64,000 bases of DNA from Cliona cf. orientalis (Eukaryota > Porifera > Demospongiae > Clionaida > Clionaidae), in contig OZ005707.1 of the NCBI GenBank assembly GCA_963930775.1, positions 5,084,001-5,148,000 on the forward strand, in the 5' to 3' direction. Below the pieces are notes generated by a model, which was not told the origin of the DNA, did no database searches, and was given only the letters and a program-made list of their open reading frames with translations. Position 1 is the first letter of the stretch. Each line of letters starts with the position of its first letter. The position numbers and the translations under genes were made by a program. Below, one piece after another: positions 29,904 to 52,400 of the stretch.

Positions 29904-32900
29904 ATGTCCAAAGTGGGTGTGGCAGACTCCTCCTCCTCCCCCTCCCATCTTGGTGATGGCAGCAGCGGCAGCGGCCAGACGAAGGTGGAGCCAAACAAGC
30001 GACCCCTGATCGTTGCCGCCTACCGCTACGGTGAACCATTTCGGAAACGTCGAGTGAAAGTTCCCACAAATATCAAATGGAAGGAGTTCTTGGCATTAAT
30101 CTACTCCAGGCTCGAGATTGACACCAACTTAAACATCGAGATTTATGATGAACAGGGGATAGAGATCGTTGATGTTGACGATTTAGTGGAAAATGACGTC
30201 CTAGTGGTTCGAGATATGCCAGCGTCTATGAAGTCCTACCCCAAATCTGCAGCAAAGGGGGGCAAACCAGTGGCCCCCATGGTGGGGGGAGGGGGAGTGG
30301 GGGGAAGAGAGGGTGGCCATGGGGGAGAGATGATTCAGAGATACCCAGAACAAGCCAACAGTGTATCGGTTCCAGCCGTAGCTGTGAGATCACATGACAA
30401 GTCACGTGACCTCGGTATTGAGCACTCGATGATGGTGAGTACCCCGCAGCTGAGTCATTTCATCCAGCTCAACAGCTTTGGCTACTACTTTCTCGCCGAA
30501 GTGGAGAACATGAAACTGGTGCCAACTCACGGCAAGATCAAAAAGATTCACTGCATTGTAAAGGTGCCTCACTGTCAGAAAGGTATGCTCACTATCTAAG
30601 CCTGTCTGCAACTGGTTAATTCTAGCTATACTATAATATAGCTGAGCTGTAGCATAATACTGGGTCATAAGAAGACGCTGAAAATAGTGTTCAGTGATGC
30701 ATAATTGGATTTTGTCTGGGGGTACATGACATTAGTCCTGGTGTGTGTCCACTGCTTGTCTAAGCTTACTTCAGTTTCTCAAGATCCTTCCGGCTTTTTA
30801 GCTTTGATGTACGTGATTTATCCATACATGGTTGTGCCTGATTAATTATTAATGTACATGTACATGTATATATGTACATGTATATTATGTATATGTACGC
30901 TAGCTTAGCAGGAGGATGGTGGCGGGAGTAAATAGGTTTATGTAAAGTGAGGGGGTGCTAGTAGTGTTTGAGTGCAAGGTGGGTGGCCCAATCAGAAACC
31001 AAACGTTCCCCCCACATCAAAGCATTCGGGAGGTTTTGATTTCTGCAGCCTAACATGTTGTTGAGCACTTGTTTAGTTAGTAACTGTCTCTATGCCACAT
31101 GCAACGGAACAGTCCTTTGATCTCTGTCTATACCTTAACTACAGCTAGACTGCTATGAAATTTTTATTGGCTTATCTTCTATAGAGAGTTGTTTTACGCC
31201 ATTCTTTCATGTAGAACGCTTGATTGGGTGTACACAGAGCAGTCTCTCTCAGTGTCTCAATTAGCTCAATCACTTGCAAATTTTCTCTCCTCTCTCTCTC
31301 TCCCCTTCTCCCTCTCATTTTTCCTTCCCTTCCTCTCTCTTTCCCTCCCTCCCTCACTCCCTCCACACACACCAGGAGCTCCGAGAACATTTGCTGATGA
31401 GGCAGATCTCCTTCGCAAGGTGTCCAATCACAAGAGCATCATATCTCCTCCATCAGTTCAAATCCTCAACTTTTCCGACGACAGTTTACAGCATTTCTTT
31501 TCCAGCTTGCTCCAGCAGAAGCAGGTGGTAGTGAGGGAGCTGTTTATGAGCGGCGGCTGCATGGAGGCTTACATATACCCCCTCTATGGGGTAACAATGG
31601 CAACTAGAGTAAAGGTGAGCTAGAAAGTCTAATACCATTCCCGCGCATCCAAAAATGGGGCTTGGAATGAGGCTATGATGGAATGAAGAAATCTAAGAAG
31701 CTAAAATTAATTGTTAATATATAGCGAGACAATTGCAATGTTTTGAAATTAGCTGGCTTAAAAAGCATTTGGCTTCGGTAAACGTTAGCTGTGTGTCTCT
31801 TGCACATAAAGAAAATTAGTAGCATGTGACAACATTCTGGTGGAAGTCTACTCCAGCTTGAGGTTGTGAGCATGCAATATTTAATCTGGGCAGATAGGAG
31901 TGCATGGTAGCTAGGAGAGTACATACATATACGCTGCAGAGCTAAGCTCCCAAATTAAAAATGTTATACTACGCATCCCAATTAAAAATGCAGTGAACAT
32001 ATGGGAGTAGTGCCTCCTCCATGTGTATGTGTCATATGGTACATAACAGGAGTGTGTGTGTGTGAGTGTACACCTTGGAGCCAACACCAGAGCCAGAGCA
32101 GCTAGACAAATTTACAATTCTCTCATGTACGTGTAGCCAGTGCTATCCCCCAGGCTATCCCCCAGGCCAGCAGGCCGGGTATGTGTTCACTATGTGTGGG
32201 TATGTATTTAGAGCATTGAGTGTGGCCAACTACATACATGTACATATACAGTGTACGTACGTAGTTCTACTGGAGTGACTCTCAAATTGGATTTCCCATC
32301 CCTTATCTGAAACTGGAAGCCTTGTTGATCACTGTATACCTATGTACTACCCAAGAGTGTACTACATAATATAATTATTATACATCGTTGCACAAGATGG
32401 GACATTTGGCTACAGTGACTATTTACACATGTACAATGTAGCCCTAGCCCTGTTGCTAGGCACATGCTGTGGCCACTTGTGGCCTGCCGTGGGGGAGAGG
32501 GAGAGGGAGAGGGAGAGGGCGAGCTACGTCAGTCAGATCAGTCAGTCCGTCAGTCAGTCAGTGGAGGGGTGCCCAGTCATTGTGTCTATGTGGGTGGATG
32601 GATGAGTGGTTGTCCCGGTAACGGCAGAAGCCCCTGGTGTGAGCTGTCCATGCCTGTAGGCCACACTAGCCACACTAGCTGATGCAGACAATCAGCGCAG
32701 ACAATAACAAGCTTTAAAAAATATTTCGTGCACTTTTGGCGTAAGTGTGTCACACAAAATCATGCATACGTACATATAATAATGGATGATATTGTTATTA
32801 TTGAGGTGATTGACCACTAGGAATTGGTATTTTTTTTCCCCACCATTAAACAAATAAGAATTTTTACGTAGGTTTAGGGAGTAGCTGGGGCTGCGGACTG

Positions 32901-35900
32901 TTTATAAAGTTCTGTAATCTATGGAAGGGGGTACATACATATTATGCAGTAGCTAGTCCACCTCTTAAGCTTGGAGGCTTGACTGTATGGAGACTGTGCA
33001 TTTGCATGTACATGTACATGTACATACTTGTACGTGTGATAGGGGCTTCAGTATGCACGCACCACACATGGACGGAAAGAATTTCACACTGTTTAGAGTG
33101 TGTTTGCATCGTAAGGCCACAAATGGGACCATTGGCTGACATTTAATTACGTGAATGTTTTTAGACCATATTTAAACCAATTTGGTTAACAGAGACGAAG
33201 GGAGGGAGGGAGGTTATGGGGGGGGGGGGGGGGGAATCTATCTGTATATGCTCCGTCTACTAGGGTCAATCAAGGTGCACTTTCCTTCAAGTTTCCTTCA
33301 CCTGTTGCCTTGTTTGTCCGTGTCCATGGCAGCACCAGCCTGCAAGTATTTGTGGGGGCTGGCCAAGGTGGATAACCTACTATGTCATGTATGCTACAGC
33401 TACGTAGACAGCTGCAACAGTAATTTGCTTACTTCAAAGAAACCGCTTATCCTTTTGTGATTTGTTTTATTGGCTTATACATACTATGTACACGTACATA
33501 AACATACATGTGCATCTATTACTGCGATAAATATATTATTTCTTCTTGGTATGTGCTTAATTATCATAAATTATATGCTGCAAATTTACATGCATTTTAT
33601 ATGTAAGTGTTGATGAACAGCTAATTAACCAACTTTGTTAATTATTACCAGCCCCCTCCCCTTTATCCCCTCTCTCTCCCTCTCTCTTCCAGAACGGTTT
33701 GACTCCGGATAAGGTATTGAAGTATTCCTACCAGTTGGCAGACATCATGTTCTACCTCCAGCAGAGGGGAGTCATCCACCAGAACCTTCTGCCAGAGAAC
33801 ATCCAGGTATATTACACATGTACATGTATATTATATAGTACAACTGTGGAACCTATACATCTACTATGGTCAGCTATAGGCTGAAAATTACTGACTGTAA
33901 TAGAGAGATTGGCTGCTGTAAAGAGGTGTTTAATGTATGGAGTTTTGCCACTCGGAGCTTGAAACTAAGTGGCCGCTATAATTAAGGAGGGCCGGGGGGG
34001 GGGGGGTGCCTTATACACAGTGACCACTGTACTGTAATACTACACAGGTTCGACTGTATCCGTATCATAGAGAAGTTTTTCACCCCCAGTCCATGTGCAT
34101 GTCCATGAACCAACTTCCCTCCCCACCTCTCCCTCTCCCACCCTCCTCCTATAGCTGTAGACTATGCTTGCAAATCCCTTGACAGTCCTGCAATTGTCCA
34201 GTGAGAGAAAAGAAGAGAAGAGAGTTACGTCTATTGTCAATATACATACATAACAATCCTCTTCCCTCATTGGTTAGTCTGCATTCAGTGGTAACTGTCA
34301 AGTGATCTGCAAAATGTAGTACCAACCCCTGATAAATCTGACCAGTTATTGATCAGTGCTTAGATTGTCTTTGAAGTCTGCGTGTACACAGTGTGCATTT
34401 GGTATTTGTGTTCATATTTTAACAATGTACTTTTATAATAATAACTCGATGTCACTGGATCAGTTTTCCACGTACACTCGTATCTCCATAGCAACCAGTC
34501 AGGCTGGCTATGATCCCACGTAGCGTACAAAATTCCTCGCGTTTGTGGTGCTGTAGCTATGGGCTTGCGGCCAGGGCTCACAAATTAAAACTAGTTTGCC
34601 TTCTGCGGCTAAAAATCATCATTCTTGAACTAACGAGCCGATATACTTTTTTCTTTAGGAGTAGCTGGCTGTATGTACACATAGTTATCTAGTTGGTATA
34701 GTGGGTCTTTTTGGTTGATACACCTGGAAGTTAAGTCATCAATTAGGTCACTTAGCGGGCCCGTGAATCTAGTTTAGTCTCTTTTGAGCAATTAAGGTGA
34801 AAATGGTTGAACAAACTATTATGAAAGGCACCAATGCAATAATTTGTGTGTGTGTGTGTGTGTGTGTGTCACATGATTGTGTGTAAGCGTGTGTGTGTGT
34901 CTGTGCGCGCTGTACATACATGTATTATACCGAGTTCAAAGGCAGAAAAGTTTATGTTTAAGACAGAGGCTATGGGTATGTTGATCGTTAAATATTTTTG
35001 AACTGGCCAGGTTATAATAATATTATGGAGTTAGTACTACATTTTGCAGATCATTTGACAGTCACTACTAAAATTAATGTGGAGTGACCAATAAGGGAGG
35101 AGGATTGCTGCATCATATTGACAATAGATGGTGTACATGTATATTTGTGTGTGTGTATGTGTTAGTACGAGTGTACTATGTAAAGAAGTTAGCGAAAAGT
35201 TTGCAAGTACTCATACAGTACAGTGCATCATGAATACGACTAGCTGTGTGCAACCATAGTATTGTATTGTACTGTAACGACGATAAGAAGAGTGTACCCA
35301 GGTGTGTGTGCATACGTGTGGGAGTTAACCCCTTGTGGTATAAACATTTGCCTCTCCGACCATGCATAAAACCGCACTGGCACAGCGCACATAGAATGCA
35401 ATAAATAATGACAACCCAGTGTGGCATGTACATGTAATGTGAATTGAGTGGATACATAGAGCCAAGTCATTCATATGTAAGAAGTTTATAGCTGTAGATG
35501 TACACCTGTGCATGCGTACACTCTTTTGAGTCGACCTACTTAGCTAGTTATTATTGTTTTGAAGTGGATTATTCATGATTCGAGATGTTTGTATGAATCT
35601 GCTTGCGCTTGAAATACATAGCTACGGTGAGATCAAGGAGATAAGATTAGGCCTATACCAGGTCGAAAGCCTTAATGTTATAATTGGTAAAATAATATAG
35701 TCGAACCTTCTCATTTCAGCCACTTACTTAGTTCCTAGCTCGAAGCGGCAAACTTCATACATTATTATACACGTCTTTTCAAGTTGCCACTTCCACTATT
35801 TTTCGGCATATGGTGACCACTATAGACAGATTCCACTGTTACAGTATCTTGCTGGTACATGTACATGCATGTACTTCCCTATTTCGCTATAATTGTACTG

Positions 35901-38879
35901 ACTAGAATTGAGGACAATTATAGGTAATGGATTTGTGGGGCAAAGGCAGATGGGAAAGTGAATGTACAGTGTGTGAGTTCTGGTTGGTTGGTTGGTGTGT
36001 TTTGCCGAGGTGAGCAGCTTGCAAACAGCTGTTGATCAGAGTTACGACGTAGGTACACGTACACATACATGTAGGAGGCTGGATGGTGAGGCCAGGGAAA
36101 GATGGGAAGCCTTGTAGTTGGTAATGTCTATAGGTTGGTACTAGTCTAGTGCTCAGTGTTTACTGAGACAACCAATTCCAACTGTAGGTCGATCAGTACT
36201 AATGTTGTATGAGCAAGGGGTATGGCTTGTTTGGTGGGCCTAGGCGGGTGGGAAAGCCTTGTAGTAGACTCTGTAGTTGGTAGGCAATTTGCTGGATTCC
36301 GTGAATACCACCGACAGAAGGTTGGCTGTTTGCGTGATGGTGTGTTTGAGTGTGTTCATAATTACCAAAAATGAAGGATTGGCAGTAGCCCATAGAATGA
36401 GCCACCAATAATTGACCAATGTGGATTGGTGGTGGTATACCTCAATTAATGCATGTGTGAGGTTCCACTAGGTATTGCTAGGATGCTTGTAGCCTCTCAA
36501 TGCTTCACTGAGTACATGTGCACATCTTTAGGCATAGCAAATGCACCTAACAGATAATTATGTACTCGCACATTTGTGGTTTAAGTGTGTCGTTCTGTAG
36601 CCACAATGGCAAGCTATCCAAACCCATTTATCTTAATTAGATTAAACATATTAGCAATAATTAGACATGATTACACGTTCATCCTCACTTCCTCCCACAT
36701 TCATCTCTGATCTGATCATCCCATCCCATCCCCTCCCCTCCTGTCGCCGTCCTAAGCCACCCTACCCTGCTCTGGGAATGACTTCAACCGTCTGTGGTAA
36801 TTGAGTAAAACGAAACTCATGTACATCTGTACACTATCGTGATTCAATAAAAGATGGGTGTGCTCCACCCACCCACACACACACACGCATACAATGTACG
36901 CTAATACGAGTATGAGTGCTCGGGTGCACATATGAAATTGCGTGTAACTCTCGATTTGTGAGGGCAGAGTTTTGGAATTAGATCACTTAAATATTTGCAC
37001 ACGGTTTCCCATAGACGAGGTGCAGTAATTAAGCAATGCACCCATCCGTTTGATACGTACGTTGTACAGGAGTGGCCATGAGATCATGCATATGATTGGA
37101 TTGTACCTGGCTAGCCAATAATGAAAGTCATAGTATCACCATATCAATCATCTCATCATTTATACATTAAATTACTTTTCCCCATAGCGTCAATTGTAGT
37201 TGCTGGCTATGCAGTCCACTATATAAATTATAGATACACATAAAGAACGTTGCATCATTTGCCATAATATCATGTTTGATAGCACCGTTATGTCCCGCAT
37301 TCCGAGCATACAAGCTGGCCAGCTTAGCATTGCACATGTACCTTATGTATTTGGTAGTCTATATAGCTGTGAACAGAATTCGTTGTGTGTGGTATGATGT
37401 CATATATATACATGTATATAAGCTAAAGCTTCCCATGATAGCAGCAGCAGCCAGTGCGCCACGAACGGATCCTAAGTATGGGTAGGTCTCACGTCGCAAT
37501 ACCACTCCTCAATCATGCAATACCTTTGATGTGTGTGAGCATTCCCCACTATACCTACTCAACACTCTGACACTGATGCTATTTATTTACCTCTTACTGC
37601 CAGCATATCAAGTTTAAAGAGGCTGACTGCACGATATGACTATTATCCCATCCATCCAGCCAGCCACAGACATGCGAGTATACTGTAACTCAGATCATCT
37701 GTCACTCAAAGCGTGTGCCGATGTACAGTTGTACGCATGACATGGTACATGTACGTACGCATGTGTAGCTAATAGCTTGCATGAAAGTGTGTTGGTTGAG
37801 TGCCCGGGCCATCTGATACTCTTCATAGTGTTTCTGATTCATGAGAAGGTTTAGAGTGATGATCGCTCAATTCAACGCCACTTAGGCAGCTCTGTGTGCT
37901 AACAGTGACGACATAATATATGTACAACTGTACATCACCACTGCTCTGTGTTTGCAGTTTGGATCCCGTGCACTTTCACAAGTACCATTGGTTTAGTTAG
38001 TGTACTCTGTACTGTTTGATTGTCCTTCTCTTGCTTTGCCTTCGATCTCTACTGCGCCTACTATAATATCTAGATGACGTCCAACGACCGTTACATGTAT
38101 GTTGAGGATGATTAAATTCCGTGCATACACTTTCACAAATTGGTTGTCATTAAAATTTTTCTTCCTTTGCCCTGCTGGCATTTCATACTAGTTGATGTCT
38201 AACGACCAGGTGGTGCTGTTTTAACTTTAATCACATCATCACTGTGTTTATCATGAATTATTGCACATAATAATGTTATTATAGTATGTACTCTGTCTGA
38301 TTGTTGTCGTGGCAATGGAATTTTCTATTAGGTTATGTCCAACGACAGAGTGGTGCTCTGCAACTTTGAGACAGCTGTGCAAACAAATCCAACATCCTGT
38401 CTGCTAGTTGCCCCACAGAGTGTCATCGCCCCCGGCAACCGGAAGGGACTAGCACCAGAGGTCGTCCGTTCCTTTTCCTGTCTCAGGTAATAACAATGTC
38501 CCCAAAATAAGGATGTAATTAGGACACTATATTATAGATCTATTGAGTCTGCAGTACAGAAAAGTGCATCTTTGAAACAAGAGCACTTCATGTATTCTCC
38601 CGGGAATATCGAATCCCAAGGGTGCATGTGTGTATAATAGAGTTCCATTGTATCTATACAGGTGTCCCTGTGGTTGCAAATAAATTGAGATGGGATAAGC
38701 AATACCGTACAGTATAGTATAGTATTGGAGTGAGATAATTCCCCTCAAACCACCATAACATGCACAGCGTGCCGTGTGTATGTAAACACAAATTTAGTTC
38801 ATACACACACTCTCTAGCTCTTGGCTCTCCCTCTCTATCTCACATATGCACACATGCACACACACACACACATGCACAC

Positions 38880-38919
<40 letters not shown>

Positions 38920-41900
38920 CACATGGCAATGCACCCTCACCAGAGTTGAAGGTGAATGTATTGACTACTCAACTCAGTACCCTTGGAGTTTTGGTGTTCT
39001 CTCTGTTCTCATGGCAACGGGGCTCCACCCACTGAAGGATTACCCTGAAAGCTACGAAGGTGGAAACAAAGTCAAGTATAGATCACATGACTATCAGGCT
39101 CTTCCTGATACTGAACAGGTACGTATACGTCTGAGACATTTGGGAACTGTTACATGACTGTATATGTGCAAGCAAAGCACTTTTGAGAAAGAAAACTTTC
39201 ATAAATTCTGTGGTTATGCAGCCAACTGCAAACAGTTTATCCACAAAACTTTTAGGTGAGGTATGTGATTTAGCTAGCACTATAATCCTTGAAAGTTTTC
39301 TCTGCAAAAGTTTGCTTATTCACAAAATTTTATTTGTTCGATAATTTCCCAGTATACCGTATGTCTATGTGCCAATGTACCTTTCCAAGTGTACCATTAA
39401 TTATTTTTCCGTTAATTTGCAGTATCCTCCTATATTCTGTAAGCTGGTGAAGCGGTCGTTGGCTTGTGATCCGATTCGTCGACCAACATTGCCTCAGATC
39501 CTCTCCATCATCAAGAAGGACAGCAAGGTGATCGCCCTGATGACCGGCAAGAGGCTAGGGGGACCCAGCAGTTCCACGGTGGCCCATGGCCAACAACAGA
39601 GGGGCGTGTCCACTGGTGGGAGTGGTCAAGAGAGAGGCCTGTGGGGTTCAATGGAGTCCATCAATCGACATGCCCAAGGAGGTCAGCTATGGCAGTTAGT
39701 GGGCGTAGATTAGCTTAAAATGTACATTGTAAACATTATTGACATTTTAGATCGCTTAGGTAGAATATACATGTACATGTATACAGTCCAAATTCTTGAA
39801 CTTATTTGTGATTATCGGCGTTCATACTTCCAGGTATTGAATTGTTTGAGTCATCAAAGACCACTAAGTCCTCTAAGCCCAATCTCCCATCGTCATTCTC
39901 GTCCAAAGATTTCTACGATACTCACCCTCCGTTTGCAAATTCACATGCTAGCCGGCATCTGCCCAATATTGATGACACAGCATCGGACGTGACTGGCTAT
40001 AGAAGGTCCTCGAACTTGCAGCACCAACAGCGGACAACAAGAACTGAGGCACGCCACTCCTCCCACTATGAGACGACCACTACCGAGAGGATGGAGACTA
40101 GTGATCCTGTTCTCCCAACCACTGGACATTGCAGTGCTCCAACTCGAAGAAAACAGCAGCGCTCATCCTGGGACACATTCGGAGGAGGAGGAGGAGAAGA
40201 ACAGAAACAGCAGCGGCAACAACGACAACAACAAAGCAATGAGTTCTCCTTTGTCCCTCTAGCTCAGTCCGATCACTCTCCTCCTATGGCAGTGAAACAA
40301 CGAGAAGGACTAACTCTGAGGCGCTACAGTTCCTCGGGAGCCTTTTCAGATGATTTCGTACTAGGACCACAACTCTCGAGAGCTTCGAGTAGCCGGAGTG
40401 TACATGCATCTCAGGCCATGCGTAGGGTTGGTTCGGCTTCCAGGCCGCACGGCAGTTCTGAAAGACTGCTCGGTAGGTCAGGAACCACGAGTGAGAGTGA
40501 CCTGAGCCAGATCCAAGAGTTTCAGTACCATCGGCTGGGACTGAGCCCCGATGAGAGGTTCCAGAGAAGCGACCAAGAGAGACTGCTCCACAACAGTAGT
40601 CCTGAGATGGACGCACACGACCTATCCAGTGGAATGCACGAGTATTCCCAGAAAACTCGCCGAGGGAGGGCTCATGCTCAACCGAGTTTTTCACCAGAGA
40701 CGTCTCCTCGTTCTAAAGTAGCTCGAAGCAACAGCTACCAACGTTCGGTGGTCGATGCAAAATTGAAGGTGCCAAGTCCACTCTCTACGAGGCGATGCCT
40801 GTCGAATGATAAGTCCACAGGGGAAATTCAAGAGGGAGGTAGGGAGCCCAGATCTGAAAGGATGGAACTGGAACCTCCAACAAGGGACGTGACCAATCCA
40901 CCTGTTTCTACACTTTCTAGTCCACTAAGACAGCAGGCTCCAGGTGAAAGGACTGAAGAGAGTAGTCGCTGCTCACCTTCCCATCAGCGGACCAACTCCA
41001 ACTCTTTATCGACTGGTCCAGAGGGTATCCTCATGAGCAACAGTACCGTAGGAAATACTGAGACACAGACCACTACCTTATCTCTTGACCTGACTAGCCA
41101 ATCTCAGTTGTTACACGGAGGGGAGGTGTCTGGTAGTGAATTCATTGAACGAATGGACACCCAAAGTGGCAGAGAATCGAGTGAAGAGAGGGCTGGTCTT
41201 CTCTCTCCAGTTTATACCTCCAGATCAGAAGTTGCTCATGCCACTACCAACAAAGCCTTTTGGACTAGTGCGACGCCGGCTGTCTCTACTTCTGGTACTA
41301 GAACAGTGCATAATGGTGAAAACAGGCCAGGTCATTACCAATTTTCAACAGAAGACTCCAGTGCCAGCAATGGCCAGCGCCTGCCAGGTGTACATGGAGG
41401 TGACAGCCACCAGGACCAAGACGTAGTGATGATCTCTCCCATCACATGTACTCCTCATAGCCAGGCCGGTTTGGATATCTTTCCTCAGGCCTTCTCCTCA
41501 ATGGACTCAAATCCAGTAAGAGGTGATGTCGGTGTCCGTAACAACAATGATACTTCTGTCGGTGGTTCTCAAGTACCCCTGCTTGGTGCCGGTGACGATG
41601 AGGAGCTTACTCCGAGGGAGGAAGACAATACCAGAGAGCTGCAGTTTAGACAACATGACAGTCAATTGGAAGATAATAGTAGCATGTCGTCATGGAATCA
41701 TGGTTGTATTCCCACATCTGAAGCAGCTGCAGCTTCCTCATCATTAACCTCACCAGTGTTCACTGCTGAAGACTCGACCATCGACTTGTATGCTTCACCC
41801 AATCACCTGCCGCCACATCGTGACTATGGTGTGATGTCACCGATCCCAGAAGCCAGCCAAGAGCTGACCAATTCCATGTCAATGTCACAGTCCAATGCAA

Positions 41901-44900
41901 ATCGGCTCTCAGGGTCGCACATGAGGTCCCAGTCACGTATACGCTCAGTGTCTCCAATATCAGAGTATGCCAATGTATCTGGGATGGACGCTACTACCCC
42001 TTCACCTCGCCATGGGAGTGTGTCTCCCTTCCGACATTCGGCGGTCACCTCAAGCAATCAAGAATCCACCACCCAAAGGAGTCAAAGCACGAGTGAGCAT
42101 GACTCTACCACACTGAGCTCAGCTTTGAATAGACCACAGCCGCAGCTGATGGACACTGGGACAGCTGCAGCTGTAGTCATGAGTAAGGATCTAGGAGAAC
42201 AAGATAGAGACGGTATTTATAGGCACCAACACCATCAGTCAAGATCAAAAAGTGCGACTCCCGTCATAGCATCTGGTGCTGCATCAAGAGAAGGCAGTGT
42301 ATCAAGTACGAGAGGAGAAGCAGTTCACTCAGACAGACCTGATGTTCAAAGTGAAGCAAACATTGCAGAGCAGCTATCAGGTACGACGAGTTCCGGATCT
42401 CGAGAGGCCTCAGTGTCAAGTAGCACGAGGGCCCAGGTTACCATTGATGTGAGCAGTGCCGTACGTGCCTTGACGTCTCAACCAACCACCCAACCTCCTT
42501 CCTCCTCTTCGTCCGTGCAGCTGCGTGGCTTTCACTCACGAGTGACCAACTACTCCCGTGAACCACTGCAGCAGCTGCTGTCCTCCTCAGAGAGCATAGA
42601 GCGCGGGGGAGGCCAAGTGAGAGCTAGCACTCCACAAAGCAGCAGCAGTGCTCCGGCAAGGATACACAGCACAGATTCTGGTCAGCGCCCGCCGGACATG
42701 GCTGCTCGACAGGTTTCTCCCTTGACCACGACTGCACATGCTCAGAGGGCTATACATCCTCAGCAGCAGCAGCAGCAATTCCAGCCTCAGCATCAACAGC
42801 AGCTGCAGCAACCACAGCCAGCTGCAAATTCGCCACACACATCAAAGAGGTACTCCCAGCAGAGGGTAGCTGAGCTATCAAGCAGTAAGAGTCAGCACAG
42901 AATCAATCAGGATATCGAGATGATGCATCTTGCCATTTCTGGCATGGACACTACTAATCGGAGTATCAGTCGCACCAGAAGCTCTGCGGTCCCACGTTCT
43001 CAGAGTGCGATACAACAAACAGCTGAAAGACAAGGAACTACTAGTAGTAGTGGCCGTGTACCCCCTCATAATACTGCCACACTTAACATGGAATCATCTA
43101 GAACATTTCGACCAATCACACCGGCAATGATGGATATCGGTCAGTCCCGTCCTGCTTCTGCTCCGGGAACCAACACTGCCACTGTTAGGCCAGCTGCTTC
43201 ATCATCTACTTCCACTCCAGTTCCAAATTCCGCACACACCATGGCCACAGCACAACATCAGCAGCAACAGTCTCCATCACCTTCCGTTCCCTCCAATACC
43301 ACAGTCTCCCAGTCAGCCACTCACAGTCAAAACTCTGCCCCTCAACCACCTCGTGTGTCGACAGACTCCTATGACTACCTTCCTCCTTACTCACCTCCTC
43401 AAAATGGAGGAAGGTCTCAGTCCCAGCAGCAACGGCAACAGCAACAACAGCAGCTGCCAGTTGCACAGCAGTCTTCTCAGCAGAGACCGCGTAGTCGGCA
43501 GTCTAGTGAGCCACCACTCTACCCAGAACCTCCTCCTAGCTACGATGAGATCTTTGGAGGCCAGAATTCAAGCGGAAGACAAAGGAGGCGTCGGGGACAG
43601 AGGCGACAGCGCGGAGCAGAAACCTTGCCGGGAGCGAATGAGGATGGGAACAGACGGTCACGCTCTGAACTCAGGCGATCAAGTAGCCAGAATGAGGGCC
43701 CCATTAGACCATCTTCCAGTCAACGTCGGCTGGCCTCGCTGACAAATTTCTTTCGTAGAGCCAGGAGGCAGACTCACTCAGGGAATTCCCAGAATCAGAG
43801 CTCAAGGGCAGTTCAGAGTGATACAAACACACCAACTAGTGTCAGTACTAGTGCTGCTGATGCTTGCCCTCCAATGGACACCAACGAGTATGTGGCCAAT
43901 TGGGTGGAGTCTTACAGCAGAACACCGAGACCAGTTGAAGCGATGGAGGCCAGAGCTGAGGCGATGTCGCAGAGTGTTGGAAGCACTGCAACTCACTCGT
44001 TAGCCTACCCTCACGTTTCCCGTGCCGCCAGTGATGTCTCAGACTCTCGACCTCACTCCGCCTCCTATCATGGTGGATATAGAGGAGGAGGAGGAGGAGG
44101 AAGTGGTGGAAGCCATCCAGTTCCTTACAGGCCACCTCCCCCATTTCCCACGGAAAATGCTGATTCAGCAGTTAGCTCTTACCCGCCTGCTGCTGTACGA
44201 GGCTTTTCGCAGGTCAGCACCGACTACAGTCTGTCTCTGAGCCGTGCTTCATCGGATATCAGTCAGTCGAGGGTATCCAGAAACAACAGGAGCCAGCCAT
44301 CATCATCATCATCATCGAGACCTTCCACCAATTACATCATCGGTCCAGGATACCAGCAGCACCACACAACGAGGCCTAGTGTTGGAAATGTTTCAAGAAG
44401 AGGAATGACGCGTGAACACCGTCGACCTGTATCAGCCATTGTTACGTCTGAGGTGTCTACAAACAATACCATCATTGATGGTGTCCTGCCAGCGCACTCT
44501 GGGACGGATCTAGTTCGTTTTGATAGCAATAATCATCGTGCTTCTCCCCAGCAGCAGCAGCAACAACAACAGCAACGGCAGCTGTCAAGACACCTTGACA
44601 ACACGGCACACATCAGCACCTCTTGCTTTGACATTGCCAGCCCTGTCCCTGCTGATAGTGAACACCAGCACTCACAACACACCCAAGAAGTAAATGTGCC
44701 ATCTTCTACTTCAAGACAAGCAACTGAAGCAGCTTCTACTAGTGTAGAACAGTGTGCACAATCAAATGATTCCGTCAGGACAACTTCCAGGCAGAGCCAG
44801 ATTCTGAGTCTGAGTCAAGGAAACAGCCAAGGTGGTGACTCCACCCTAGCCGCAAACGTCAATGCTAATAATATCAATACGACTGCTGCAAGTCCACGAG

Positions 44901-46330
44901 CAAGCAATGCCTCATCCTCGTCACCGATCAACGTGGTTTTAGTGATAGGCTCAAACACCTCACTGGGTCAGAACAGCCAGCCCAACCCTCCTAGTCCCAA
45001 CTCAAACGTCATAAACTTGTCGCCCACGGCACAGGAAGATCCTACTCAGCTGGCAATTAGTCCAACAAGCTGGTCCAACAGTGAAAGAAGAGCAAGTGCA
45101 GGAACGAGTAGCCTATCAAGCCGAGCAGCTGCCAGGCAAAGAGCTGAAATGAGACTGTCTCAGCGTGATGTGAGTAGCTCAGACGAGGAGAGCAGCCAGA
45201 GAAGCGATCGATCACAGAACGGGGTTGTCAGGTCGCACAGACTGAGGCACAGGAGGAGACGGTCACAAGGATCGATGATGAGTCAGGCGGAAAGTCTCAG
45301 GTCAAACAGTCGAGTGGACGTACAGCAGCTTTCTCAGATGTCAAGACCATCCGATCTTCGAGTCAGTTCAAACAGCCGCGTGGACGTACAACAGCTATCA
45401 CAGACGTCTAGACCAGCTGATCTTCGAGAGGAAGAGATGGAGACTAACGTTGAATCTCGTGCTCTATCACAGGACCAGTCACACGTCGTCAACCAGACGG
45501 ACGTCAGGCCGAATGGGACAGTGGAGGAAGAGCAGGAGGTGCAAACAGGTATGTATGCCTTTACTCCGTATACTATGTATATACATACAATGTATAGCCT
45601 ACATACATGACATTGTACATGTACATGTACATGACGCTGTACTCTGCATACTGATCAAACAGGCTTAGCTTGCAAACTTGAAACATGCAGCTATAGCTAG
45701 GTTTTGCACAGTAGTACTTGTTACAGTGGTTGAGCACTGTTTACGTCATTATTCTGTACGTCATTCACAGTTGAGGTGGCCATTGAGGATGCGAGTGAGG
45801 GCTCCACTCAGAACCACCAGAGTCTTGTCTCGAGTGGCAAGTCGTGCGGCCATTCCTGTGAGGCTGAGAGCCAGGCACTCTGCTGCATCTGCACAGTGGA
45901 ACAGGGAGAAGTCCACGCCACCACTGAAGGGGACATCATCAGGATGCTGTCAAATTGCTCACTTTGTCAGAGGTCAGCTATAGCATATTGCAGAATTCAA
46001 TCCCCCCCCCCTCTCTCTCTCACTCCCTCCCTCTGTCTCTCTCTCTCGCTCCCTCCCTCTGTCTCTGTATTTCTCTCTCTCTCACACACTCCCTTCCTCT
46101 CTATAATAATTATAGCCATCATCTTGTTATTCATTCCCCTATTCTATAGGCGCTGTAATAACCAAATCCATCAAACTCACAGCTACAGCAACAAGATTCA
46201 CTCTCACTCTCAGGCAGGTAGTAGTAGGATGTCATCTCAAACAGCTGCCCCAGGTACCACCACCACCAGGGCTGCAGGGGAAGTGGAACCACAGAGACAG
46301 AGGGGAGGCAAAAACTGTGTCATCATGTGA
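29904..46330 (+). CDS. giant pseudokinase with beta-grasp-like N-terminus and CaaX C-terminus (about 2,572 aa)
   Basis: Exons: 29904-30582, 31376-31614, 33693-33806, 38332-38486, 38944-39118, 39423-39681, 39834-45548, 45771-45972, 46150-46330; all phases match. Residues about 33-104 resemble a ubiquitin-like beta-grasp domain of the DCX/KHA kind (DEQGIEIVDVDDLVENDVLVV). Residues about 180-510 follow a kinase fold: NSFGYYFLAE in the glycine-loop position, Lys220 in IVKV, LAPEVV and YPWSFGVL. The catalytic HRD is HQN (335-337) and DFG is NFE (355-357), so it is probably inactive. Residues 541-2445 are one exon of Ser/Gln/Arg-rich disordered sequence with poly-Q runs and L/PPxY motifs. The end has CGHSC, CCIC and CSLCQRRC clusters and finishes CVIM, a farnesylation-type CaaX box. 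I do not recognise the family. The gene converges on NOLC1. Confidence 0.85.
33807..38331 (+). other. 4.5-kb intron of the pseudokinase gene
   Basis: This is the longest intron of the gene, between the catalytic-loop exon and the NFE exon. It holds a GT repeat (about 34844-34869), a G run at about 33997-34006 and several ACATGTAC palindromes. Near its 3' end are decayed copies of the next exon's start. No gene was seen inside it. Confidence 0.7.
38071..38360 (+). repeat. three successive copies of the NFE-exon start
   Basis: tagatgacgtccaacgacc (from about 38071), agttgatgtctaacgacc then aggtggtgct (from about 38190), and the genuine exon start aggttatgtccaacgaca then gagtggtgct (from 38331) repeat at spacings of about 120 and 140 bp. 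The second would encode MSNDQVVLF and then a stop. Flanking words such as gtactctgt...gattgt also recur, so whole segments were duplicated. Confidence 0.6.
38850..38918. repeat. (CA)n microsatellite
   Basis: Imperfect CA repeat with ATG and ACG interruptions, just upstream of the acceptor of the exon at 38944-39118. It supplies much of the C-rich tract there. Confidence 0.9.
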
Positions 46331-46585: not shown

Positions 46586-49292
46586 TTAGTCACTATCAAA
46601 CTTGATGCTGTAGACCTGAGTGTCAATGGCACCCCCTCTGTAGGTACCTCGCTTCTTCTTAGTCTTCTCATGGCGGAAAGATTTACCTATAGTTACCAGC
46701 GAGACAGAGTCAATGGGTATAAGTAATGAAGCTGGACCCTTTTTCGTTCGACGACCATTACCAACTCCGTACACATGTACCATGGGTGTATAGAGAGACT
46801 ATGATATAGCTAACCTTTGGTGAACTTCAAATCTTTATTTGCCTTCTCTCCCCACGAACCCCTGGATCCAGCCTGAACATACAATAGTAGTACAATGTCG
46901 TGTACTAGCCTTGCCTAATAGTTCACTATTATAGCTAACCTTTGCTTCGAAAGAGTTGTCCACTAGCCTTGGATCAACGTTGATATCTCCTTCGACCCGT
47001 CTGAACGGAGTAGACACGCCATTTCCCTTCTTGCCTTTTCCACCATTGACCTTCTGCAAGAGAAACACACAATGCATGCACATACCGTAAATCTGGAAAT
47101 TTTCGTTGTAAAAATATTTTCGTAGTCGATGGCGGGTATATACGAAAATTAATCTTACGAAAATTAGCATGCACTATTAACGCTAATGCAGTAAAGGGTC
47201 GTTCCTACGAAAATTTTTTTACATGAAAATTTATCATACGAAAGTTTTTTACACGAATATTTCCAGATCTACGGTACATGACATTGTACAGACTCGTAAC
47301 ATTTACATGTATGTAGTACCATAGTGATTATATCCCTTAAAAATAAATAATAATTATTATTGATTATGTATCAAAACACACCTTTGATGGTTTGTTGGCT
47401 GCTGGAAAAGTTGCAGAAGTGGTTGGTTTGGATGTCTTCTGATCGGGAGTTTGGGCAGCTGCAAAGAAACAGAAACAGGTGGTGATCTTTACCAACCATT
47501 AATAATTATTGTAGGGTGCATACCCATACTACCTACATTACATAGCACCAATAAAATTATCTCTGTACCTGCTTTCTCCTTTTTCCCTTTCTTTATCTTA
47601 GCACCACTGTCAGCTGTCACTTTTTGTTGAGGTACAAAGGCTTTAGCTTTAATGATGACCTCCTCTTGGTCAGAATCCTCACTGTCGGAGCTGCTGGAAC
47701 TCTCACTGGTTTCAACTTTCGTCTTCTTGTCAGTCTTGAGCAGAACCGGCTGTGTCTTTAGCCCCTTGGTGGCAGCTGCTAGTTTGGTCTCTTCATCATC
47801 ACTACTGTTCTCACTGTCGCTACTGGAGCTCTCACTGGTACTATCTTCTTCCTTAGCTGGTTTGGCTTTGGAAGGAGTGGCTTTAGGGGCAGCTTTCTTC
47901 ACCTTCACATGATCACCGCCAGGATTGGTCTCTTTATCACTACTGCTCTCACTAGTGCAGCTATCGCTTTCTTTTTTCTTAGCTGATTTGGCCTTTGAAT
48001 CAGATACAGCCACCTTCGATGTAGTAGTCACCTTAGTGACAGTCTTCTTGGCTGATACATCTTCGTCATTTTCATCTGAACTGGAATCTGATGCACTCTC
48101 ATTCGACTCTTCATTCTTCTTTTTCTTCTTAGCCTCAGCTGGAGTTACTAACTGTCTTTGCTTAGTCTTGGCAGGTGCAGCTGCTGGTGTCTTCTTTGTA
48201 GTGGCTATGCTTGGCTTTTTTGTACCATCATTCTCTTCGCTTTCAGAGTCTGTAGTGCTTGAGGATGTGTACTCGTCATCACTCGACTCCTTCTTGGAGC
48301 CTGGGGTGGCTTTTTCTTGCTGTTGGGTACCTTTTGAAGACTTTGTCTTCTCTAATGGCTTCTGCTGAAGAGGCTTAGTTTGCTGAACTTTGACCTTTGG
48401 TGTCGTCTTCTTTACTTCTTCTTCCGATTCAGAGCTGCTGTCGCTCTCAGATGAACTTGACTCGCTACTTGACGTTTTGGCCTTTCCCTTAGACTGTGCA
48501 GATTTGGTAGCCACTTTTATCTTGGCTTTTGCCACTCGAGGTCCACTGGTGTCCATTTCCTCATCATCTTCTCCATCAGACGTATCACTGCTATCCGAGC
48601 TATCAGCAGGTGCTGCTTTCTTTGCAGGTTTGGACATAGGCACCTGCTTTTTCGACTCAACAGTCTGTTTGATATTCTTCTTCTTGCTTGCTGTTTTGGT
48701 GGCAGCTGCCACCTCTTTTTTGGATGTCTTAGAACTCGTCTTTTTCTTTGCTTTTCCACTTTTTCCTTGATCCGTTTCCATCTCATCATCAGACTCCAAA
48801 CCAGAACTAGAGCTTGGTATTGTAATCACAGTCGACTTGCTCTCCACCACAGCTTTGCTGTCTCTTGGCTTCTGCTTTGTCACTGTTTCTTTCTTTCTCT
48901 TCTTTGCAGGAGGAGAGGCATCACTCGTCTTTCCATCTCGCATGCTGACTGTCCGTTTACCAGGGCGGCTGCAGACACAACACAGCAAGATAATAATATT
49001 AGCATGAAACGTGTATTTATTAGTACTTTGAAACTATAGTATACCTTGTTTGATAGTGTTGATAAAAGTCCATCAATCCAGGACCTTTCTGAGTTTGAAA
49101 TGGCTGTGTAATGGCATGGCACAGTATAGCTAAACCACTTTAATATTCTCCCGGGCAGAATCAGTTAATACTTACAACTTTGCATTCTTTTTTCAGTGAT
49201 TTGGCTGCTTTGGTTAAGTTACATTCAACCAAAAAGGCATGGACGTGAGGAAAGAGATCAGAAGGAACCACAGCTTCCTTAGCAGATGACAT
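46586..49292 (-). CDS. NOLC1: nucleolar phosphoprotein Nopp140 (636 aa)
   Basis: Nucleolar and Cajal-body chaperone of snoRNPs. Exons: 49176-49292, 49045-49088, 47569-48968, 47382-47458, 46940-47053, 46815-46872, 46586-46686. The N-terminal exon encodes a LisH-type segment ([20 protein letters not shown]). The central exon has about ten alternating acidic-Ser (SSSSDSE, CK2-site-like) and Lys/Ala/Pro-rich blocks, the hallmark of Nopp140. The last three exons form the conserved SRP40 C-terminal domain: [40 protein letters not shown] and the closing SIKFDSD. The order and the length (human about 700) fit NOLC1. Antisense frames across the acidic blocks are shadows. Confidence 0.93.
47083..47276. 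repeat. foldback element with TACCGTAAATCTGGAAAT-type ends
   Basis: The left end taccgtaaatctggaaat and the right end atttccagatctacggta are inverted near-copies. The interior repeats ttacgaaaattt in both orientations. 194 bp in a NOLC1 intron. Its terminal TACCGTA is shared with other elements in the window. Confidence 0.8.
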
Positions 49293-49462
49293 TGCTAGCC
49301 TCGTGGGTACGAGGCTACTCCCTTGCCTGATCTTTGTGCTTTGATGTCCCTTTTCCTGATGAACTGACGTGACCACGTGGTCGATGGTGCACTCACGTGA
49401 TCCAGCTTCCTCTACAAAAGTGGGCGGGGCTGGTGAGGTTGGGTCAATGGGTCAATCTAACG
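49293..49462. promoter_or_regulatory. bidirectional promoter of NOLC1 and MTHFD2 with two E-boxes
   Basis: 170 bp between divergent start codons. CACGTG occurs at 49374-49379 and 49394-49399, 20 bp apart. A tacgaggcta word near 49308 matches the end of the 15179 foldback family. Confidence 0.75.
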
Positions 49463-52400
49463 ATGGCTTCGATCGGAGTAAGAAGAGTTCTTTCATCTCT
49501 GAGGACAGAGGTAAGTCCTTAGTTCACATATCGACCATTATTTGATGGTACAGAGCACATATTTAATAATGATCATGCTTAGCTTATGAAATAATTTATA
49601 CAATACACTTGTGTTGTACTTGTCCATACAGGTCCTATCAAGCTGCTCTCTGAGGTTATCACCCAGCGTCTCTTTGCGCCCTATTCAGCGCAGCTATGCC
49701 GGTGGAATCAACGAGGAGTTTCTAACTACCAAGCCGGGGCTGAAGGCAAAGGTCCTGGATGGAAAGCGACTGTCAGCTCAAATTCAGAAGGAGGTGCGAG
49801 AGAGTGTCGACCAAATGACAGAAGTGGGAAAGAGGTGAGAAATATGACATGCTAATTAATTGTAAATATAGTCCTTTCTGTGCTGGATATTTCATCCCAT
49901 ATTGTTATACACGTTGTTGCATAATTTATTTTCAAGACAAGGCACCTATTACAGTGGCTCTGCCGTAGCTGGGCCCAGGATCAGGTTCGCCTGAGCAGGC
50001 AGTGGGATGTATAGTTGCCCTTTGGCAGTACGGTAGTATTAAAGATAGACCTGTATACTGCTGCCGCAATGTTTACTTTCTCACAAAGCTGCTTCTGTGA
50101 GAGTTAGCCCGGAACAATCATTAATGAATATAGAATTATCTTTCCTGCCAAAAACTGTATAATAATATTATTGTGTATTTCCTATCATGTACTATGGCCA
50201 CACTGTATGGCAAATCTTAATGTAGATTCTCTATAGTAATATTGTATCTCCTACTCTGGCAAAATTTTATAATACATTTTACCCCTCCACAGGCCCCCTC
50301 ACCTGGTGGCAGTGATAGTTGGTGACGATGGTGCATCGAGTGTCTACGTCAACAACAAGACAAAGGCTGCTGAGAAGTGTGGCATAATTGGAACTACCAA
50401 AAAACTGGGCAAGAATACCACGCAACAGGAACTGCTTGACCTCGTGGACGCACTCAACAAGGATAAGGAAGTGAGCAGTTTGGCACATCTGTCCTGTAAT
50501 AGGGTGACGTAATATTATACCCCAAGCTACATGGTATATACCTCTTATGTGGTTCCATGAATATTAGTGCATGTGTTTATAATTTGTCTGTGTTTCTTGG
50601 CCTGTCCCCACCATGCAGTCCACAGCCTCGTAGTTACAGACAGACTGCTGACAAATGTAGCTTGGGTATTATGATTAGAGGGACATCCTTATTTCATAGA
50701 TCCTTTACAAAGAGGTTCTACTGTATCCCCTCCTCATATACACACTCACTAACACTTAAGGTGACAATCATGACAATCTACTTTTTGACCTCAGTTTTTA
50801 TGTTGTTTTTAAAACCACAATAATGCTTTGATCTTTAATCACCACCCCTTTTAAAATACGAGCTGTCTATAACACTGGATTTTTCTGCGGATTAGCCCAA
50901 AAATGAAAACTATAGAATTTGCCAACCATTTCTGTAGACAAATCATACTACTCTTAAAACGTGCTTTAGCAGGAAGTGAACAAGCACATAATCAGGAGGA
51001 GGGTGGCCGCCCTCCATTTTACCCTCTGGCTATTATACAACCCTGAAATCAATCTTAAGGTGCATACCCTCTCCACCCCATTCTCACGCACACTTGTGCT
51101 CCCACAGGTGGACGGTATCCTGGTCCAGCTTCCCCTACCCCCACACATTGATGAGAAGACAGTCTGCTACTCCGTCACCCCGGAGAAAGACGTTGATGGG
51201 TTTCACTTCCACAACATCGGCCGGTACTGTGCCGGGGAACCTGGGAATGCCCTGATCCCGGCCACGCCCCTTGGGGTGCTGGAGATCATCAAACGATGCA
51301 ACATTCCAACGTACGGGAAGAACGTGTGCATCGCTGGAAGATCAAAGAACATTGGTACGCTTAATGCACAAGTGTGACTAATTTCCATGCATGTATGTAT
51401 TGTAATGTATTTGCAATTGGTATTGCACATACGCATGTCCATGTATTAATTCTTACTAACTTGTGTAGCCTATTATAGCCCCAGGGATAACTTAAATTAT
51501 CATTGGCCAATTCTGTAGCCTGTGTATCTTCTGAAGTGCACAGTGACCGATTCTAAGAATTGATTATCTGCATACATGTACATGCATGACATTCTGGAGA
51601 GTATTGTGTACTGAATAATTTTTATACATTATTTCAGGGTTTACTCTGATGACGCTGCTTCATAGCGATGGTACTGGTGATGCCACGACAACCATGTGCC
51701 ACCGTTACACTCCACCAGAGCAGCTCCCCGTCATGACAAAGACTGCTGACATCGTCATTGTGGCAACAGGTATGCACAATAATATTTATTATGGTACGTA
51801 GTATATATAGATCGTAGAGATTTCTTTCGTTTAATGGTGGTTTTTGTGTATAATAATTATAGGAGTGACTCATCTCATCAAAGCGGACATGGTCAAGGAG
51901 GGGGCAGCTGTCATTGATGTTGGTGAGTTCAGAGTTAAGCTGAAAATCTGTGTGAAGACTAGCAGTATATATTATGATCTTTAGCCTTGCTTGTTTCCAG
52001 GTCCTATTCCCAGTTTTCAGTATTGCATACTGAAGTGCATGCATGTGTGCATTGAAAGATCGGGGAGCCTGGGGACTGTGACCCATCATGCTCATGCTAT
52101 GAGGCACCAAGGGTGTTTGGGTGTATCCCCTTGGTAGCACAGTAATACCGTATTTAAAACCAATGTAGCGCAAGAAAATTCACATTCTAGGATTATTCAT
52201 AGTGTAAAGTGTGACGACCTTTACCAGAAAGTTGCACGAAATTGCTTGCATTCTAAACACGGAGGATCTACGTAGATTCTTGTTCTCTACTCTCTGTCTG
52301 GATAGAAATAGTGATTTTTGTGGTATATATTGTTTATTTTCATAATTCATTTGCAGGGATCACTCGTGTCAAAACAGCCGATGGTAAAGTCAAGCTACTG

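Follow-up and report, generated by a model that had tools for sequence, protein, structure and literature searches.

A candidate membrane scaffold in the sponge Cliona cf. orientalis combining a PB1-like domain, a pseudokinase of probable PINK1 kinship and a giant conserved tail

Gene structure at the locus

We analysed a stretch of 64,000 nucleotides from the sponge Cliona cf. orientalis (GenBank assembly GCA_963930775.1, contig OZ005707.1, positions 5,084,001 to 5,148,000 of the forward strand), hereafter called the window, and within it a gene for which a preliminary description, made from the DNA letters, had proposed a giant pseudokinase with a beta-grasp domain, a disordered tail and a C-terminal CaaX box. 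Rebuilt from the raw sequence, this gene lies on the + strand at 29904-46330 and consists of nine exons encoding 2,572 residues. All eight introns are of the GT-AG type with agreeing phases, and the joined frame contains a single stop codon, which is terminal. The outer coordinates and the agreement of all exon phases given in the preliminary description were thus recovered, as was its order of parts (kinase fold, large tail exon, Cys cluster and terminal CVIM in one frame); its protein length of 2,570 residues was right in order of size but not in the exact figure. The exons are as follows.

29904..30582 (+): exon 1, with the start Met, the PB1-like domain, a linker and the first pseudokinase strands (gene model, 11 relatives)
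31376..31614 (+): exon 2 (gene model)
33693..33806 (+): exon 3 (gene model)
38332..38486 (+): exon 4 (gene model)
38944..39118 (+): exon 5 (gene model)
39423..39681 (+): exon 6, where the kinase fold ends (gene model)
39834..45548 (+): exon 7, giant low-complexity yet conserved tail, residues 541-2446 (gene model, relatives)
45771..45972 (+): exon 8, which holds a Cys cluster at 45845-45967 (gene model, composition)
46150..46330 (+): exon 9 plus stop codon (gene model, composition)

The donors of exons 6 and 8 (39679-39690 and 45970-45981) have in common GAG before the junction and GTCAGCTAT after it.

Protein searches gave 27 relatives in total, 12 for the N-terminal half and 15 for the tail. 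A single one of them is named, the Geodia barretti protein P0001, which belongs to the N-terminal set; from identity to this sequence, we infer a sponge origin for the others. The start Met is almost invariant across the 12 aligned rows of the N-terminal half. Since its parts recur in other species, the gene is no local accident. Viral and prokaryote contigs were also searched for relatives with flanks, and none was found there.

Pseudokinase domain and kinship with PINK1

The kinase fold extends across exons 1-6, with the following landmarks.

30459..39521, introns included (+): pseudokinase domain, about residues 186-487, exons 1-6 (Pfam, PDB, tree)
30561..30563 (+): Lys of the VAIK motif (K220), present in all 12 rows (alignment)
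33777..33800 (+): catalytic loop HQNLLPEN instead of HRDLKxxN (alignment)
38362..38370 (+): NFE instead of DFG (alignment)
38428..38463 (+): APGNRKGLAPEV, corresponding to GGN...APE of PINK1-type kinases (alignment)

Two Pfam families match this region above their cut-offs, PK_Tyr_Ser-Thr (E 2e-14, 53.9 bits against a cut-off of 23.1) and Pkinase (E 2.3e-12, 47.3 bits against 31.7). The Gly-rich loop is gone and the VAIK Lys is retained, while the HRD Asp, the catalytic-loop Lys and the DFG Asp are replaced in both sequences that cover them. The second of these, Geodia barretti P0001, reads HQTLLPEN and NFE at the same motifs, so that the catalytic motif loss is common to both sequences. The degraded kinase of the preliminary description is borne out.

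When the genome itself was searched with the pseudokinase (30 candidates scored), the matches at E <= 0.001 comprised six rows for exons of the gene itself and a single further locus, C19:1557899-1558429 (33% identity, E 9.8e-20). The kinase at this C19 locus retains HLDLK and CDFG, and the nine best PDB matches of its kinase stretch are all PINK1, the mitochondrial kinase (E 2.5e-20 to 3.5e-14), the next being GCN2 (9.6e-11). With an insect PINK1 stretch as query, the top match was the C19 locus (E 2.6e-17); another PINK1-like locus ranked second (E 4.5e-7), with ordinary kinases close behind (from 6.3e-7; 29 matches in all). In a 21-row tree, a branch supported at 99/98 separates the two pseudokinases, the two PINK1-like kinases and insect PINK1 from the other rows, and the pseudokinases join the C19 kinase with support 80/74. 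The pseudokinase and the C19 kinase also share the stretches around DYP..Y and GN...APEV. A GGN...APE segment is typical of the PINK1 family; it reads APGN..GLAPEV and APSN..GLSPEV in the pseudokinases versus GGN in the three PINK1-type rows.

It is conceivable, though unlikely, that the pseudokinase is not of PINK1 descent and that its link to the PINK1-like kinase reflects long-branch pull. The pseudokinase stem is long (1.88 in the tree), and approximately unbiased (AU) tests rejected neither a tree in which the three PINK1-type rows stand together without the pseudokinases (p 0.27) nor one that pairs insect PINK1 with the second PINK1-like kinase, on C17 (p 0.09), both of which count against the PINK1 grouping. 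In direct PDB searches with the pseudokinase, the 60 and 50 matches listed were other kinases, with no PINK1 among them. On the other side stand the PINK1-like locus as the sole non-self genome match at E <= 0.001 (E 9.8e-20), the DYP..Y and GN...APEV stretches in common and the five-row branch at 99/98. From these sequence comparisons, we consider PINK1 descent of the pseudokinase to be probable.

The C19 kinase (L025 4262-5488 (-), G000:C19:1557899) occupies one open frame with intact catalytic motifs; frames that look coiled-coil-like by eye lie downstream of it, and the frame at L026 4099-5178 (-) is presumably enolase-like. The C17 kinase (L028, G000:C17:6144056) extends over several frames with HRDLK, ADFG and GGN motifs and is perhaps the PINK1 orthologue of this genome.

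N-terminal domain

The N terminus is composed of a Ser-rich stretch and a PB1-like domain.

30000..30215 (+): ubiquitin-like (PB1-like) domain, residues 33-104 (Pfam below cut-off, 12-row alignment)

The preliminary description had proposed a beta-grasp fold here and a profile search of the N-terminal part; in that search the kinase fold passed the Pfam cut-offs, whereas PB1 appeared only below its own (E 9e-4, 19.6 bits for the cut-out segment against a cut-off of 23.6; E 0.025 for a longer piece). This PB1 match is the sole named support for the beta-grasp fold. PB1 was matched at E <= 1 by 4 of the 12 N-terminal rows. In a PDB profile search with the domain no match was significant: an EF-hand protein scored best (E 0.033), and ubiquitin-like GABARAP-type chains lay near E 1. 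Of the genome's six PB1 matches, five were compared with the domain by hhalign (L012, which has two internal stops, was left out); the alignment was weak, covering 24 columns with a probability of 4%, and 2 of 200 column shuffles scored equally high.

An excerpt of PMC7051960, a study of PB1 evolution, defines the domain by a D-x-D/E-x-D/E core (OPCA) and by Lys in its first strand. None of the 12 rows has this core at the matching columns 82-86, where 10 read DExGI and the others DESGV and DENDI; P0006 matches the OPCA pattern at a different place. Residue 41, at the position of the strand 1 Lys (register set by eye), is Arg in 11 of 12 rows and Lys in one, and the strand 3 Tyr may correspond to Y81, present in 10 of 12. 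The basic residues K48, R49, R50 and K52 and the acidic residues D82, E83 and D93 are identical in all 12 rows. Given the Pfam score below cut-off and the missing OPCA core, membership in PB1 was not accepted, and the domain is called PB1-like, not PB1.

Conservation and motifs of the tail exon

Exon 7 is a single open frame of 5.7 kb (1,905 codons) with 18.4% Ser, 9.1% Arg and 9.0% Gln, which agrees with the Ser/Gln-rich tail of about 1,900 residues in one exon described earlier and adds Arg to its composition. A search with 235 residues of it (model residues 1706-1940) yielded 15 proteins of 1,612-1,942 residues, all at E <= 6.7e-15 and 31-97% identical to the frame of the window over the alignment. 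A block was called conserved if at least five of its positions matched the window in 14 or more of the 16 rows, a row count that includes the window itself. The 16 tail rows contain 28 such blocks, of which 22 lie outside the searched part, including SSGAFSDDFV, MSPIPEASQE, LAISGMD and FRPITPA; those inside it include DSYDYLPPYSPP, PPLYPEPPPSYDEIFG and EYVANWVESYSRTPRP. The main blocks and motifs are the following.

40331..40360 (+): tail block SSGAFSDDFV (16-row alignment)
41834..41920 (+): tail block starting MSPIPEASQE (16-row alignment)
42893..42949 (+): tail block with LAISGMD at its end (16-row alignment)
43379..43390 (+): LPPY, of WW-ligand type, in all 16 rows, within the query region (alignment)
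43532..43543 (+): PPSY, of WW-ligand type, in all 16 rows, within the query region (alignment)
43886..43933 (+): tail block EYVANWVESYSRTPRP, inside the searched part (16-row alignment)

PPLY occurs in 12 of the 16 tail rows. The window has two PPxY motifs versus 0.2 expected, a number reached by 22 of 2000 shuffles, and the genome contains 42 WW-domain matches. Among other short patterns looked for in the tail, 14-3-3, PKA-type and SP/TP sites showed no enrichment, and R..[ST] was mildly enriched (59 vs 45.1 expected, 14 of 2000 shuffles).

Both ends of the tail were compared between rows. In the tail frame, Met appears first at residue 627. Ten of the 15 relatives extend well into the stretch ahead of this Met and align there (16/61 to 81/83 identical), and the remaining five cover 16-27 positions of it. 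Several relatives' entries begin with M near the acceptor, where the window has TTG; TTG is a start codon for bacterial gene callers, and this M may therefore not be real. At the 3' end, [QSV][TIV]G is common to 15 of 16 rows by eye (P0026 has no clear fit); beyond it, the rows either stop or continue with unrelated residues. Mean identity to the window falls from 0.62 in exon 7 to 0.17 over the 19 positions past the donor. The tail ends look like conserved splice sites, and because conservation is bounded by acceptor and donor, the tail is probably an internal exon. In-frame splicing together with conservation that starts at the acceptor and stops at the donor in relatives supports the earlier opinion that the fusion is unlikely to be a modelling artefact.

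Cys cluster and CaaX box

The protein ends in a motif of the CaaX type.

46316..46327 (+): CVIM, CaaX-type farnesylation motif, C-terminal (gene model)

Residue composition gives an expectation of about 1e-4 to 5e-4 for the wider pattern C[VIL][VIL][MSQACT]. K-Ras4B also ends in CVIM. Prenyltransferase alpha-subunit repeats gave five matches at two loci of the genome. For the Cys cluster of exon 8, no family scored over the Pfam cut-offs, none was found in NCBIfam, and the PDB match was at chance level (E 3.8). A search for another copy of the C-terminal exons gave a single weak match (E 0.05, two stops), which was regarded as chance.

Codon make-up was compared with 3000 intron samples using two trainings, each pair of counts giving one per training set. 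Exon 8 is coding-like (3 and 0 samples score as high), exon 9 less distinctly so (0 and 130) and the last intron is non-coding-like (1037 and 1285), by a measure that separates frames poorly because the held-out exons 2, 3, 4 and 6 score highest in another frame. The last intron (45973-46149, 177 bases) is stop-free in frame; if kept, it would give a hydrophobic stretch at 46094-46150 that could span a membrane, with the CVIM end unchanged. The same gene might have another C terminus, either retaining the last intron, which would add the hydrophobic FLSIIIIAIILLFIPLFYRR, or leaving exons 8-9 unused. The frame 45734-46330 is open throughout, and the protein would therefore end in CVIM with or without intron removal; however, the last intron looks non-coding and exon 8 coding, with exon 9 less clear, so that we find such an alternative end improbable.

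Proposed function

Our preferred interpretation, of moderate confidence, is that one gene encodes a catalytically dead, PINK1-related pseudokinase acting as a scaffold. Farnesylation of CVIM would tether the C terminus to a membrane. The N-terminal domain, which has an invariant basic patch (K48/R49/R50/K52) and invariant acidic residues (D82/E83/D93), may pair with itself or with partners head to tail, as PB1 domains do, and the pseudokinase may serve as a protein-binding module. The tail would act as an extended, flexible docking strip that recruits partners through its short conserved blocks, and LPPY and PPSY are candidate sites for proteins with WW domains, for example ligases of the NEDD4 type or regulators of the YAP type. 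The outcome would be a membrane-tethered platform for signalling or ubiquitin ligases. A more ambitious version, which we put forward as speculative, is that of a sponge family whose members unite an oligomerising PB1-like domain, a pseudokinase derived from PINK1, a conserved WW docking strip of nearly 2,000 residues and a farnesyl anchor into a membrane-bound polymeric hub for NEDD4-type ligases or Hippo-type signalling.

Several observations weigh against this interpretation, in addition to the AU test at p 0.27 and the direct PDB searches. The exon model is a prediction from genomic sequence. Among the 12 + 15 relatives, no second species was seen that joins the N-terminal half and the tail; the shared architecture that the preliminary description had suggested looking for in other sponges was encountered as separate halves in relatives, but both together in none. 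Likewise, no coincidence linking both halves was found between the lengths of the source contigs of the 12 N-terminal and the 15 tail relatives, and a full-length protein search with N-terminal words gave nothing at E <= 0.001 among 5498 candidates. The tail relatives found stop at the tail exon, and the CaaX box and Cys cluster (exons 8-9) are supported by one genome, through frame and composition. PB1 features are incomplete in the N-terminal domain. WW binding and scaffolding are predictions from motifs, and the presence of LPPY and PPSY in every match is partly selection, because the query part holds both motifs and matches lacking them would have been harder to find.

A division into two genes, one for a 550-residue pseudokinase that continues past the exon 6 donor and terminates at 39713, the other for the tail, appears very unlikely. 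The exon 6 frame is indeed open up to that stop, its donor (GTCAGC) deviates from the usual form, Geodia P0001 terminates near the exon 6 end (though the entry is named partial) and the halves are linked in no other species seen. However, the gap between exons 6 and 7 is 152 bases with agreeing phases, the tail is conserved from about its acceptor, 86 codons ahead of its first Met, and several relatives begin near that acceptor with an M that is perhaps TTG as in the window. Finally, some kinases once termed pseudokinases are active by unusual routes, and the VAIK Lys is identical in 12 of 12 rows, but we give little credence to such activity here since the catalytic Asp, the catalytic-loop Lys and the DFG Asp are all replaced in both covering sequences.

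Neighbouring frames

Downstream of the gene, the region 47489-49451 (-) has a Ser/Lys-rich acidic frame and a weak LisH match (E 9e-4, below cut-off) in the frame next to it, which we take to resemble NOLC1. The frame at 49590-49838 (+) presumably resembles the start of a folate dehydrogenase/cyclohydrolase; it has no Pfam match at E <= 0.01.

Comparison with known proteins and significance

The dead kinase fold of the scaffold candidate falls in one group with PINK1 in the 21-row tree (AU p 0.27 for the alternative), and its GN...APE segment resembles the GGN...APE segment of that kinase. It differs from PINK1 by its replaced catalytic residues, PB1-like N terminus, giant tail and CaaX box, and by the fact that PINK1 is missing from the direct PDB matches listed for it. 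To our knowledge, no pseudokinase kin of PINK1 has been described. MEKK2/3, MEK5 and atypical PKC are known for a PB1 domain N-terminal to the kinase, an arrangement that the sponge protein recalls with its PB1-like domain; here, however, the PB1 features are partial, the kinase is dead, and a tail and a CaaX box are added. Angiomotins, which the excerpts consulted present as WW-ligand scaffolds, are commonly known to carry LPxY/PPxY motifs, a layout comparable with that of the sponge protein, for which binding is predicted; they are not known to have a kinase fold or a CaaX box, and the comparison concerns motifs, not sequence kinship. LKB1/STK11 is generally known as an active kinase of another group with no giant tail. 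According to an excerpt of PMC3898322 it is a farnesylated kinase, and in this respect it shares with the sponge protein a kinase fold followed by a C-terminal CaaX box.

Among the literature matches listed for sponge kinomes, pseudokinases, prenylation and PINK1 (titles and starts of abstracts), no such protein appears, in line with the initial statement that no described protein with this order of parts was known to its author. As far as could be seen, the protein family is so far unnamed. The relatives, the probable PINK1 kinship, the WW-ligand motifs and the conservation of the tail are new here.

If an early animal lineage did build a dead PINK1 relative into a giant scaffold, this would show how a kinase became a docking part. 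With about 1,900 codons, similar length in relatives and many identical blocks, the tail is a good test case for the retention of short motifs in low-complexity regions. Sponge cell biology thereby gains a directly testable candidate membrane scaffold.

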